Shown here: positions 2,778 to 37,253 of the stretch, one piece after another
Position numbering within the stretch: the first letter of the stretch is position 1
Layout: every line of letters begins with the position of its first letter
Assembly (NCBI GenBank): GCA_027622715.1
Contig: JAQBYN010000029.1
Location: 1-37,330, forward strand
Length of the DNA: 37,330 nucleotides
Origin: Pseudomonadota bacterium
GTDB taxonomy: Bacteria; Pseudomonadota; Alphaproteobacteria; SHVP01
Reading direction: 5' to 3'
Position numbers and translations under genes: made by a program
Notes under the pieces: generated by a model
Told to the model about the DNA's origin: nothing
The model's database searches: none
Seen by the model: only the letters and a program-made list of their open reading frames with translations

Positions 2778-3911
2778 CTACTTCACCGCGCCGAACACGT
2801 TGTACTGGCCAAAGCCCTTGCCTTCGCCGCGGTCCGATCGCGCGACATAGGCGCTGGGCGCCGCGTCTTCGAAATAGCTTTTTGGATCGAACCCGGCTGT
2901 CGTCGAAATCGCCTTCCAATCCTCGTCCTGCATCGTGCCGAGGTAGGGTTCGGCGTTGTTGTGCGCGTTCCACTCAACAAAATACTTGCTGTAGATCTCG
3001 CCGCGACCGATGGCATCGGCGTGCAGCATGATCCCGCCTGGGGCAAGCAACCGGTAGCACTCCTTGACGATCGCGCGCGACGCCTTCACCGACGTCTCGT
3101 GGAACATCAGGTGGCTGGTGATCAGGTCGAAGTACCCGTCGGGGAAGTCGGTGTGTTCGGCGTTCTGCTGGCTGAAGTGCACGGCCTTGCCCAACGCCTC
3201 GGCCCGGTGGTGGCCGTAGCGGACGCACGGACCGGCGACGTCGATGGCATGGACCTCGGCACCGGGAAAGTGATCCACGTAGGGCACGCTGGCATGGCCG
3301 ACGGTGCACCCCATGTCGAGGATCCGCTTCGGCTTGAAATTCGGAAAGCGCTGTTTAAACCAAGTACCGGTTGAGACGCCCATGTCGTCGTTGTTGGGTC
3401 CGGCTTGGCCCATGAAATACAGATGAATGGTGCGGTCGTACTCGGCGCCCGCGACCATGTCGCCCTCGTCGGTCACGTTGGTGTGGTAGGCGCCGGGTTT
3501 GGAATGAATGTCGACCGCGGTGTGATAGCGCGGCATTGCCAAATCCGGGTTGAGGCGCAGCGAGCCGTTCTTGCCCGAGAACTTCTTCGCCTTCTGATTC
3601 AGGTCCGGCAACTGGCGCTCGATACTTGGGCGCACCGTGTCGTAGAGCATTTCTTGGCTGGTGCGCAGCATCGAGCCCCACAACTGGTTGTAGGGTTCTT
3701 TGCCAAGCTCTTCGCGAATTTCCTTGCGGGTCTCAATGCCGCGGCCGTGCGTTTTACGAAAGCGCGTCTGCACCGGCCCGTCGAACAGGGTCTTGTTGCC
3801 CGGCATCACGTCTTGCGCGATGTGAACTTTCAGACTGCGGATGAAATGCTGGCGCGATTGCTCGTCGTGCCATGCGTCCGGGAACATCGCGTGGGTGGCG
3901 TTAACCGGCAT
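2778..3911 (-). CDS. SAM-dependent methyltransferase with long conserved N-terminal extension (copy 1)
   Basis: A 377-residue protein whose C-terminal half is a class I methyltransferase. Motif I is DMGCTVGH (199-206), the acidic SAM-ribose residue is D224 in AIDVAG, and a SHLMFHETS block (266-274) leads into the post-motif region ECYRLLAPGG. The first ~195 residues are not a standard methyltransferase part. They contain PRYHTAVDIH (127-136) and a YHT block (142-144) that are almost identical in the second copy at 36069-37253. GGAGGGG four bases before ATG 3911 fixes the start, and a strong terminator follows the gene. It appears to be monocistronic. Nothing in the sequence or neighbourhood identifies the methyl acceptor. 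Confidence 0.85.
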   Translation of the reverse strand: MPVNATHAMFPDAWHDEQSRQHFIRSLKVHIAQDVMPGNKTLFDGPVQTRFRKTHGRGIETRKEIREELGKEPYNQLWGSMLRTSQEMLYDTVRPSIERQLPDLNQKAKKFSGKNGSLRLNPDLAMPRYHTAVDIHSKPGAYHTNVTDEGDMVAGAEYDRTIHLYFMGQAGPNNDDMGVSTGTWFKQRFPNFKPKRILDMGCTVGHASVPYVDHFPGAEVHAIDVAGPCVRYGHHRAEALGKAVHFSQQNAEHTDFPDGYFDLITSHLMFHETSVKASRAIVKECYRLLAPGGIMLHADAIGRGEIYSKYFVEWNAHNNAEPYLGTMQDEDWKAISTTAGFDPKSYFEDAAPSAYVARSDRGEGKGFGQYNVFGAVK

Positions 3912-3977: not shown

Positions 3978-4271
3978 TTAGACCATCCGGTCGGCCTTGA
4001 AGTTGTCGGCATAACTTTTCGGACGAATGGTGCGCACCTTGGTGTCCTGCACCTGATAGGCAATACCGTGCTTCTTGGCGAAGGCAACCGCCTCAGCCTG
4101 GGTATCGAAGGTCAGCGACAGCTGCTGGGCCATATCGCCCGAACTGGTCCACCCCATCAGGGGCTCGATTTCCCGCGGGCTGTCTAGTTCGTATTCCAGG
4201 CGCCATCGCCGCGTGTTGGCGCGGCCCGACTGCATGGCGTTCTTTGGCGGCTGGAAGATGCGTGCTTTCAT
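3978..4271 (-). CDS. NADH dehydrogenase (complex I) NDUFS4-type accessory subunit
   Basis: A 97-residue protein of the ETC complex I conserved-region family (NDUFS4, 18 kDa subunit). Recognisable features are the start MKARIFQPPKNAMQSG, the WRLEYE strand, PLMGWTSSGDM, the LTFDTQAEAVAFAKKHGI helix region and the terminal KSYADNF. In alphaproteobacteria and mitochondria this subunit sits on the peripheral arm near the 75 kDa subunit and stabilises complex I. The frame is open upstream to 4355, but those 28 residues are absent from the family. ATG 4271, with a GGGTGA site, is therefore preferred. The gene stands alone, away from any nuo operon, which is normal for this family. Confidence 0.9.
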   Translation of the reverse strand: MKARIFQPPKNAMQSGRANTRRWRLEYELDSPREIEPLMGWTSSGDMAQQLSLTFDTQAEAVAFAKKHGIAYQVQDTKVRTIRPKSYADNFKADRMV

Positions 4272-4394
4272 GGTCTCACCCGAATTTTGTCCCGCAATTA
4301 AGCGGCAGAACGCCGCGAATTCAAGTCGCAAGACTGGCCACCGGCGCGGCGGCATTGTACCAATCCGGGAACGTACAACCGGACGTGATGCGCA

Positions 4395-25483: not shown

Positions 25484-26143
25484 TCAGCGCCAAGGCATGT
25501 CGGGCGCGGCGATACATTCGCCCGTCAAACTCGCTCCGGTCAAGGTTGCACCGCTGGATTCTTCACCCTTGACTGATCCACAAAGACTTGCCTCCGGACG
25601 ACTATCGCTAAAGGCGAGGCCGAGCGACGTGCCGAAAACGCTTGTGGTCGCCGGTAGGCGCCAGGCATCCCCTGCCGGCACGGGGCCTAGGGCCCAATGT
25701 TTGTGTAGAGCCGCCTCGACGATCCACCGCTCGCCGCACACAGTTTCTTGTTCAAACGCGAGGCTCGCGTAGCGGCTAAAGGTCCTGGCAACCGCGCCCT
25801 GCCGGGTGGCCAAAAGACCATATCCGTTGGCCGTTGCCCGCGGTGCGCTCCCGCCATAACCCCATTTCGCAACCCATCCCTCGCGGAAACGATCGAGGTT
25901 CTTGTCAAACCAGACCTGCTCTACCGCCCTCGGACCGTCGAGGCCAAGTAGGTCAAAATGGGTAAACGGCAGCCCGCCGCTGCCATCGAGGACCTTCCAG
26001 TTCGAATAGTGCGCGATACCAGGGATGGTGTTGAAAAACGGATTGTCGATATCGCGCAGCCACTGGTCATAACCAAGGCGCTCGACGTCGGCACCAGGCG
26101 TGTAGGTCAGGAGCACCATCGTGCTGTAGTCGATCTCGGCCAT
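25484..26143 (-). CDS. Conserved-looking protein of unknown function in the transporter operon
   Basis: A 219-residue soluble protein I do not recognise. The N-terminal ~95 residues (STMVLLTYTPGAD, GIAHYSNWKVLDG, FTHFDLLGLDG, VWFDKNLDRFREGWVAKWGYGG) have the strand-helix-strand rhythm and aromatic content of dimeric alpha/beta-barrel (EthD/antibiotic-monooxygenase-like) proteins. The C-terminal half is different, with GERWIVEAALHKHWALGPVP and a serine/threonine/glycine-rich tail. No signal peptide is seen. AAGGGAAG before ATG 26143 supports the start. It sits between the DUF2848 gene (34 bases upstream) and the solute-binding protein gene, so a role in the same pathway is likely. Confidence 0.72.
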   Translation of the reverse strand: MAEIDYSTMVLLTYTPGADVERLGYDQWLRDIDNPFFNTIPGIAHYSNWKVLDGSGGLPFTHFDLLGLDGPRAVEQVWFDKNLDRFREGWVAKWGYGGSAPRATANGYGLLATRQGAVARTFSRYASLAFEQETVCGERWIVEAALHKHWALGPVPAGDAWRLPATTSVFGTSLGLAFSDSRPEASLCGSVKGEESSGATLTGASLTGECIAAPDMPWR

Positions 26144-26177
26144 TTGGACTTCCCTTCAAAACCGTTAGAGCCTGTCT

Positions 26178-26894
26178 CTACCGCGCCAAAGGCACACGGT
26201 GTGCCTCGACGATCTCCTCCAGAATATTCGTCAGCGTGTATGTGTGAGCGATACTTCTCGCCAACTTCGGGTCGGATAGTCGAAAACGCCATTGGCGCCC
26301 AAATCCCAGAGCTTTGTCGACGCTGACGTAGGTACCGGAAAACAGAATGAATCGCGCAGGCAAGGCCGCAACGCGCGCGTTCATCGCCGACAACAAGTCG
26401 TCAGGGTGCAAAAATATGTCGACACCGACATGCTGATATGGCCGCCCATCCACCCAGCTTTCGAGGACGAGGTCGTCCCAGTGATCGTGGATATCGGCCA
26501 TCGGCCAGAATCGCCGCGCCAACACGTTGGGATAGGCTTGTTTGCTCCAAACAATACTGTGCCGCTCCAACTGACGATCGGTGTGATCGCTGCCAACACC
26601 GATCAGAAGTTCCGCGCCGTCACGTAGGAGTGCGATCTCGACCTCTCCTGAGGTTTCGCCGTTGTGGACAAACACCTCATTATCGGAGACCAGATTGTGG
26701 GGCGAAATCGGATAGACCCGCGGCGCGGGAATATCGAATGCAATCCCTACGCCGGCGTCGGCCACCTCTTCCTGGTGGGCTTTCGCATCATGAGGATTGC
26801 GGGTCGCTGACCCAAAGTTATACATCCGCTCAATATCAATCCGCCGCTCCTCAACGCGGCCATCGGCGTGCTCGACCTCCACCAAGATCGTCAC
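26178..26894 (-). CDS. DUF2848 protein (fumarylacetoacetase-like fold expected)
   Basis: A 238-residue protein of the DUF2848 family. Hallmarks seen are a GEVEIALLRDGAELLIGVGSDHTDR block (residues ~83-107), WSKQAYPNVLARRFWPMADIHDHWDDLVLESW, and the ILFSGTYVSVDKALGFGRQWRFRLSDPKLARSI end. The histidine- and aspartate-rich GVGSDHTDR suggests a metal site. DUF2848 proteins resemble fumarylacetoacetate hydrolases, so a C-C bond hydrolase or decarboxylase role is plausible but unproven. Its ATG overlaps the stop of the upstream dioxygenase as ATGA, so production is coupled to that enzyme and its substrate may be a product of the same route. Confidence 0.82.
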   Translation of the reverse strand: MTILVEVEHADGRVEERRIDIERMYNFGSATRNPHDAKAHQEEVADAGVGIAFDIPAPRVYPISPHNLVSDNEVFVHNGETSGEVEIALLRDGAELLIGVGSDHTDRQLERHSIVWSKQAYPNVLARRFWPMADIHDHWDDLVLESWVDGRPYQHVGVDIFLHPDDLLSAMNARVAALPARFILFSGTYVSVDKALGFGRQWRFRLSDPKLARSIAHTYTLTNILEEIVEAHRVPLAR

Positions 26895-36068: not shown

Positions 36069-37253
36069 ATGAGAGAACCCTACGCCCATACCATGATGCC
36101 TCAAGCGTCGTGCGATGAACGTGCGCGGCAGAACTTCATTGCCGGCCTAAAAATGCACATGGAGGACCGGGTCTATCCAGCGGACCGCACGGTCTCGACC
36201 AAGCGGGTTCTGCCGCGCTTCACAGCCCAGCATGGGCGCGCACCGCAATCTCGCGCCGAGTTCCGCCACGCCATGGAGGCTGATCCGTTTGTGCAGGCGT
36301 GGTCCGCCATCGCGCGAAACATGCAAGAAATGCATTGGGACACCGTGAGCGAAATCGTCTGGCACGATCTCGACGGATTGATCGAAAAAAGCCGTGTACC
36401 GCAGGCCAAAGGAAGCCTGCATCTCGACCCCAATCTGCCTGTGCCGCGTTACCACACGGCCGTCGATATTCACTGTATGCCCGGTGGTTATCACACCGAA
36501 ATCACCAACGGCGATGTTTTCGCCGGCGCGATGTTCGACCGCGGCGCGTACTACTACGGGCTGCCCATTCGTGGATCGAGCGCGTTAAAACATACCGACA
36601 CCCGCAAGCGTATGCAGCGTGCGGCGCCGGGATACACGTTGATCGATTTTATCGACCAAACCTACCCAGATCTCAAACCGCGGCGCATTCTTGATCTTGG
36701 ATGCGCCATCGGTGGCGCAACGGTTCCCTACGCCGAACGGTTTCCCGCGGCGAAAATCTTCGGCATCGATGTCGCCGCGCCCCAACTACGATATGCCCAC
36801 GCCCGGGCCGAGGGTCTCGGTGCGTCCGTGCACTACCGTCAGGAAAATGCCGAAGCGCTGTCCTTTGACGACGGCTCGTTCGACCTTGTCGTTTCGCATG
36901 GCCTGTTTCACGAAACATCGGCCAAAGCGACGCCGCGCATTCTGGCTGAATGCTACCGCGTTCTAAGGAAGGGTGGCGTCACGATGCATGTCGACACCCA
37001 GTTCGCGCGTGGCCTTGACGACTACGACGCCTACTATTGGGATTGGGACACGCACTATAATGCAGAGCCGTTCTGGGGAACCTTGCATCATACCGATGCG
37101 CGAGACCTTCTCCGGCACGCGGGGTTCCCCGCTAAGACGATTTGCGAAGCCTGGCCAATAGGGCAGGCTGACGGCACCACCCGCTTTGATCCGGTAACCG
37201 ACAACGGCGGAAAGATTGTCGGCTCAACCATCTTTGGCGCACGCAAAACGTAG
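36069..37253 (+). CDS. SAM-dependent methyltransferase with long conserved N-terminal extension (copy 2)
   Basis: A 394-residue paralogue of the protein at 2778-3911. The class I domain has motif I DLGCAIGG (209-216), D234 in GIDVAAPQLRY, SHGLFHETS (276-284) and ECYRVLRKGG. The N-terminal half shares HLDPNLPVPRYHTAVDIH (the last ten residues at 126-135) and a PGGYHTEIT block with copy 1, as well as the opening Q-x-F-I-x-x-L-K-x-H around residues 21-30. The extension is therefore a genuine conserved domain, not a misread start. GGAG eight bases before ATG 36069 supports the start. It is divergent from GMC copy 2. The acceptor is unknown. Confidence 0.87.
   Translation: MREPYAHTMMPQASCDERARQNFIAGLKMHMEDRVYPADRTVSTKRVLPRFTAQHGRAPQSRAEFRHAMEADPFVQAWSAIARNMQEMHWDTVSEIVWHDLDGLIEKSRVPQAKGSLHLDPNLPVPRYHTAVDIHCMPGGYHTEITNGDVFAGAMFDRGAYYYGLPIRGSSALKHTDTRKRMQRAAPGYTLIDFIDQTYPDLKPRRILDLGCAIGGATVPYAERFPAAKIFGIDVAAPQLRYAHARAEGLGASVHYRQENAEALSFDDGSFDLVVSHGLFHETSAKATPRILAECYRVLRKGGVTMHVDTQFARGLDDYDAYYWDWDTHYNAEPFWGTLHHTDARDLLRHAGFPAKTICEAWPIGQADGTTRFDPVTDNGGKIVGSTIFGARKT

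Follow-up and report, generated by a model that had tools for sequence, protein, structure and literature searches.

The window analysed here, a 37,330-nucleotide stretch of alphaproteobacterial DNA, encodes two methyltransferases with a conserved region ahead of the catalytic core. This raises the question of what kind of enzyme they are, what the extension does and why there is more than one copy. A preliminary description had taken the extension for a single domain of about 195 residues, marking a separate enzyme type perhaps with its own catalytic step. The two genes and their most prominent shared motif are:

2778..3911, minus strand: MT1 methyltransferase (P0002), 377 amino acids, member of an expanded family
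36069..37253, plus strand: MT2 methyltransferase (P0001), 394 amino acids, second family member in the window
3504..3533, minus strand: PRYHTAVDIH in MT1, residues 127-136, with P127 and H136 invariant in the family
36444..36473, plus strand: PRYHTAVDIH in MT2, residues 126-135

The motifs reported earlier are indeed shared: besides PRYHTAVDIH, a YHT block lies at residue 142 of MT1 and 141 of MT2, and the opening Q-x-F-I-x-x-L-K-x-H occupies residues 21-30 in both. The MT1 protein is encoded by the minus strand, and translating the plus strand at this place does not yield it; no strand had been given in the preliminary description. MT1 and MT2 are 42.7% identical over their full length, far beyond chance, and this identity throughout, together with the motifs in place, identifies the likeness as homology. 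PRYHTAVDIH itself varies in its letters: in an alignment of 76 family members from the window's genome and other organisms, P127, H136, P139 and G140 never change, and at least 90% of the sequences keep Y129 and D134.

By profile, motif and predicted fold, MT1 and MT2 are class I SAM-dependent methyltransferases. Pfam and NCBIfam match only their C-terminal halves (Methyltransf_25/11), with Methyltransf_25 above its cutoff at E 4.9e-18 and 4.5e-23, respectively. The SAM motif LDxGCxxG is present with D224, and L198, G201, G205 and D224 are invariant in the 76 members. An AlphaFold model of MT1 (mean pLDDT 94.5, pTM 0.93) displays strands and helices alternating from residue 196, and comparison of the full model with the PDB using VIA returns class I methyltransferases throughout the list at Z scores of about 16-17, led by SgMT (17.3), UbiG (16.9) and Coq5 (16.7), with many others within one Z unit. 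The core maps as follows:

2781..3329, minus strand: class I SAM methyltransferase core, MT1 residues 195-377

Within this class, the clan relationship brings PF01209 (UbiE/COQ5) above its cutoff, at 30.0 and 43.4 against 20.1. The curated NCBIfam cutoffs are far from reached, be it for the UbiE equivalog (PRK00216.1-1; 29.2 and 25.0 against 378) or for the CpaM corrinoid protein-associated methyltransferase (NF043040; 55.4 and 48.1 bits against 180). The clan members UbiG, Coq5, SgMT and TylM1 share with MT1 the Rossmann-like core, the SAM motifs and helices before the first strand, and superpose on its model at Z of about 16-17 over roughly 180-230 residues. However, the superposition leaves a 112-residue N-terminal hairpin of MT1 unmatched, and neither the PRYxxAVDIHxxPGGYH block nor the partner gene described below is known from that clan. 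For the N-terminal region, Pfam and NCBIfam contain no model and the PDB gave no credible sequence or fold match. The earlier proposal of a separate methyltransferase subfamily is supported: the family is a subfamily of its own within a well-known enzyme class, unnamed in those libraries. A search of the openly available literature turned up no description of it, which is no proof that there is none.

The claim of a single N-terminal domain fared less well, as the MT1 model divides the region into a hairpin (residues 1-112) and a pre-core segment (residues 113-194):

3576..3869, minus strand: N-terminal helical hairpin, MT1 residues 15-112, no known family or fold found
3330..3575, minus strand: pre-core lid segment, MT1 residues 113-194, from predicted structure and superposition
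36111..36401, plus strand: N-terminal hairpin region, MT2 residues 15-111, assigned by alignment to MT1

In the model, residues 15-111 form helices at 15-35, 37-55, 62-69 and 73-111, followed by a mostly irregular stretch with PRYHTAVDIH and by helices at 153-165 and 176-188. Residues 125-377 superpose on UbiG and others, and since the ranges superposing on class I methyltransferases often begin at 125-141, the conserved block 127-142 most likely belongs to a lid before the core and is not a separate domain. Structure prediction thus splits the extension in two: residues 113-194 resemble an ordinary class I lid, whereas residues 1-112 are without a known family match. Folded alone, the first 145 residues are predicted at pLDDT 88.5.

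Nor did the searches reveal a catalytic step of the extension's own. The N-terminal part, alone and as a profile, had no credible match and hit no known catalytic fold in Pfam, NCBIfam or PDB sequences, and searching it against Pfam in 75 members gave no match. With the hairpin model alone, which likewise matched no catalytic fold, Foldseek found nothing below E 1 among solved structures, and the best VIA match reached Z 6.1 (UvsY), a level that the tool itself calls uninformative for helical proteins; we do not claim from these searches that a known fold is absent. UvsY, ING and Snf7 came up as candidate relatives of the hairpin and were set aside as long-helix look-alikes with common helical arrangements. 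We likewise dropped the N-terminal part as a second enzyme, there being no catalytic fold or family match. In the window's genome, a profile of this part matches only 42 methyltransferases and the split 5' piece of one; the extension exists there only fused to a methyltransferase core. The element, new and probably non-catalytic, has more the appearance of a helical lid or of a piece for dimerisation than of a second enzyme.

A number of residues never vary across the 39 ortholog sets: P127, H136, P139 and G140 ahead of the core, L198, G201, G205, P216 and D224 in its first part, and D262, H271, E272, R287, L289, G293, N319, E321 and G340 further on. H136, H271, E272 and E321 are also fixed throughout the 76-member alignment, which extends to sequences of just 23% identity to MT1. 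The putative catalytic pair lies at:

3096..3101, minus strand: H271-E272 in MT1, invariant; proposed general base and acidic neighbour (with E321), by analogy with PMC6730481
36909..36914, plus strand: H281-E282 in MT2, equivalent of MT1 H271-E272

In the family profile, H271 falls opposite a His that plant phosphoethanolamine methyltransferases (AtPMT2) conserve, and in the Plasmodium phosphoethanolamine methyltransferases a Tyr-His dyad is the putative catalytic center (PMC4357015). These N-methyltransferases are among the best PDB sequence relatives of the family, although the alignment covers little beyond the SAM core and leaves the hairpin unmatched. In plant O-methyltransferases, a His serves as general base next to an Asp, and a Glu about 60 residues downstream raises its basicity (His256/Asp257/Glu315); related N-methyltransferases are extended at the N-terminus by three helices that serve in dimerisation and gating (PMC6730481). 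The order of H271, E272 and E321 repeats this His/acid/Glu order. Based on that order and on the extension of those N-methyltransferases, we propose an O-methyltransferase-like mechanism with an H136-bearing lid and a dimerising hairpin. The analogy to the Methyltransf_2 enzymes (COMT type, DnrK, BIA OMTs) extends to an N-terminal part before the core and to large paralog families with different substrates; it is functional and not one of membership, since PF00891 (Methyltransf_2) scores 16.9 and 12.2 bits against a cutoff of 22.3. Unlike in Methyltransf_2, the N-terminal part of MT1 is a helical hairpin with no Pfam match; the Methyltransf_2 dimerisation domain does not appear in the VIA list for the hairpin, which excludes nothing.

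Positions that vary among paralogs and are fixed among orthologs gather at 162-180, 267-268, 298-312, 328 and 370. Nine of the top 30 fall within 160-182 (post hoc hypergeometric p about 1.4e-5, the region having been chosen after seeing the positions). Regions like these are where class I enzymes usually hold their substrate. Fixed catalytic residues with a changing pocket fit small-molecule methyltransferases with one chemistry and many substrates.

We posit that the most likely substrates of MT1 and MT2 are small organic molecules, methylated at an oxygen or a similar nucleophile. The core would bind SAM via the LDxGCxxG motif and D224, and H271 would serve as the general base towards the substrate, assisted by its neighbor E272 and by E321. 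Residues 113-194, among them the invariant P127, H136, P139 and G140, would close over the active site as a lid, and the hairpin (1-112) would be a dimerisation or lid-bracing element and not an enzyme. We assign a probability of about 0.62 to this reading as a whole: small-molecule methyltransferases with base H271, a lid at 113-194 and a non-enzymatic hairpin, which radiated over many substrates and were mostly released from their partner. Of its elements, the family, the split into hairpin and lid (by prediction), the number of copies, their orthology and purifying selection, the invariant residues and the adjacency of the partner are shown.

The preliminary description had also suggested a possible metal or substrate site in RYHTAVDIH. 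The invariant lid residue H136 may contribute to the active site, so that the block could have a metal or substrate role. Taken further, D134 and H136 of the lid could join H271, E272 and E321 in binding a substrate-activating metal, making these enzymes metallo-methyltransferases whose extension takes part in catalysis, as the preliminary description had guessed. The invariance of H136, H271, E272 and E321 in all 76 members is what such a site would display, and SgvM, an alpha-keto acid C-methyltransferase of this broad fold, was solved with Zn2+ (8rpr). However, the same residues suit an ordinary general-base site, and we regard the metal site as unlikely. Less probable still are methyltransferase-fold enzymes that retain SAM as a structural cofactor and carry out hydroxylation, decarboxylation or cyclisation, like RdmB or TamK. 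RdmB, TamK and DnrK chimeras do occur among the structural neighbors (VIA), and many neighboring genes encode oxidoreductases, yet the SAM motif is intact, an invariant H-E pair sits at the usual position of the base and nothing else suggests a lost methyl transfer.

The genomic surroundings of MT1 offer another candidate role:

3978..4355, minus strand: gene for an NDUFS4-type accessory subunit of complex I, immediately upstream of MT1, with the likely start inside the ORF, near 4271

Five genomes from three genera keep this pair, both genes on one strand (G000, the window's own, G001, G005, G006 and G008; loci including L091-L094); in G005 and G008 no other window gene adjoins it, and in G006 hardly any does. 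MT1 could therefore be locked to NDUFS4 and serve respiratory complex I through assembly or subunit methylation. However, NDUFS4 occurs without MT1 in G004 and G007, other copies are without an NDUFS4 neighbor in the loci read, and shared transcription may be a relic of gene order; we give this role a very small chance. The pairing may reflect shared expression, or a respiration-related role for MT1 alone. In G007 (L140), NDUFS4 is followed by ORFs resembling a different methyltransferase and a radical SAM protein. MT2 is divergent from a gene for an apparent GMC-type oxidoreductase, so named from its sequence. The genes near other copies of the family include ones for zinc dehydrogenases, family 5 solute-binding proteins, flavin oxidoreductases, short-chain dehydrogenases, GSTs and TRAP transporters, and a search for a constant neighbor of the 42 paralogs found none, the neighbors being mixed.

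The count of two copies holds for the window and understates the genome, in which a search recovered 42 copies, 40 of them strong relatives and two distant (3.15 Mb in 86 contigs, rated 100% complete). Across ten genomes of the same order, the copies number 42, 42, 27, 58, 64, 18, 16, 13, 9 and 8, the lower numbers including incomplete genomes. Outside the order the family is sparse: among 299 genomes drawn evenly from the phylum, only three besides the window's own carry it at E 1e-60 or better, with 1-2 copies each, and 50 other families of the class give 0-5 matches per genome in a single-protein search, mostly weak enough for generic methyltransferases. Its outside members are found in Binatia, gammaproteobacteria, sphingomonads, Azospirillaceae, Alteromonas, Actinomycetota and a cyanobacterium.

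The expansion is an ancient radiation and not a recent amplification. Median pairwise identity among the paralogs is 42.6%, and the sister species G001, assembled in 10 contigs, also has 42 copies, with 39 of the 42 being reciprocal best matches at 69-92% identity. In the 36 ortholog pairs with estimable dS, dN/dS is 0.02-0.21 (Nei-Gojobori; approximate, as dS of 0.7-2.2 is near saturation). The orthologs are under strong purifying selection, and the copies are distinct, maintained and in use. An origin as recent, redundant or decaying duplicates, or as an artefact of the assembly, as one frameshift-split copy (L116, on C33) might suggest, is contradicted by the low paralog identity, the 39 orthologous copies with dN/dS of at most 0.21 and the equal count in G001, and can be practically dismissed. 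In that copy (G000:C33:47905-49000), a frameshift near the start splits the gene in this assembly, and its ortholog in G001 (L166) is intact. On the tree, copies from the MAG contigs CANJEJ, VGES and JAPYRS pair one to one with those of the window's genome, and from this nesting we infer that these contigs belong to the same order. At a further locus (L128, G000:C41:8285-12600), two old and divergent members with an identity to MT1 of about 23% lie near each other, along with a divergent partner gene; a close relative is found in L011.

Through the analysis of outside loci we uncovered an unannotated gene of about 110 residues that adjoins the methyltransferase in 67 of 80 cases by automatic count, and in three more where the methyltransferase was absent only from the gene calls. 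The median gap is 16 bases, and the consensus of the product reads AKGKRPxFFxDP...LRDRLDTxERL. Examples are:

L019:7620-7970, plus strand: partner gene
L148:16161-16520, plus strand: partner gene
L125:8136-8456, plus strand: partner gene

Nearly every outside genome shows the pairing, those of Binatia, Actinomycetota and a cyanobacterium among them. On sphingomonad plasmids, separate searches with the methyltransferase and the partner each find 25 places, in equal numbers in most records. On plasmid pJE1 the two genes overlap by one base, amid transporter, flavin oxidoreductase, dehydrogenase and hydantoinase genes. The operon-like set there (L148, NZ_KM017071.1) comprises a TonB receptor, MFS, flavin oxidoreductases, hydantoinase A/B, MmgE/PrpD and a REDY-like HapK, and recurs on a Sphingobium plasmid from Japan (L150); the literature on pJE1 and DUF1838 clusters yielded nothing useful. 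The partner corresponds to no family in Pfam or NCBIfam. Kinship with PspB was considered and rejected, as weak matches in 4 of 63 members (best E 6e-4) were taken for coiled-coil similarity; other matches are scattered and weak.

Within the order, by contrast, there are only 3-8 partners for 8-64 methyltransferases; most copies in the window's genome are without one, as are both MT1 and MT2. On the tree, the outside copies that have a partner group together, with 6 changes where shuffling gives 42.7. Since the form with a partner has the wider distribution, it is simpler to assume that the partner was lost before the radiation or in its course. Several loci (L012-L015, L017, L018 and L020) form a clade among partnerless copies, with the partner on the opposite, divergent strand, as if regained.

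There is thus an extraordinary paralog radiation in one uncultured order, of a family with a conserved unannotated partner. Under the general-base reading favored above, the enzyme elsewhere would work with its coiled-coil-like partner encoded next door, presumably through physical binding, and most radiated copies would have been released from this partner. In this order of uncultured Alphaproteobacteria the gene would have radiated to 8-64 copies with its catalytic residues kept and its substrate pocket changed, each copy likely handling another compound, probably in scattered catabolic or transport islands. The order seems to have used the family to build a large set of small-molecule-modifying enzymes; 42 diverged, selected versions in a genome as small as 3.1 Mb point to a lifestyle built on that chemistry. 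In SAR202 bacteria, one enzyme family reaches tens to over a hundred copies per genome, which was read as expansion of substrate range (PMC6946804). Those radiations differ in being of monooxygenases, enolases and dioxygenases, and the word 'methyltransferase' is absent from the main text of that paper (PMC6946804). With the family described here, methylation would join the reactions, to date chiefly oxidations, for which bacteria are known to multiply an enzyme family and so widen their diet or defenses. The family would supply dozens of ready-made enzymes with diversified pockets, and the conserved partner gene would provide a direct handle on enzyme control. A more far-reaching possibility, which we put forward as speculative, is a two-component system new to biochemistry: a catalytic subunit with hairpin and lid His joined by a small helical partner in a regulatory or scaffold role. 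One order would have freed the catalytic subunit from this partner and radiated it into its main metabolic tool, 40-60 enzymes that apply one, possibly metal-assisted, chemistry to dozens of compounds.

Elsewhere in the window (25484-26894), a 219-amino-acid protein with no Pfam match lies beside a DUF2848 protein, next to an apparent dipeptide-type ABC transporter and an apparent GMC oxidoreductase.
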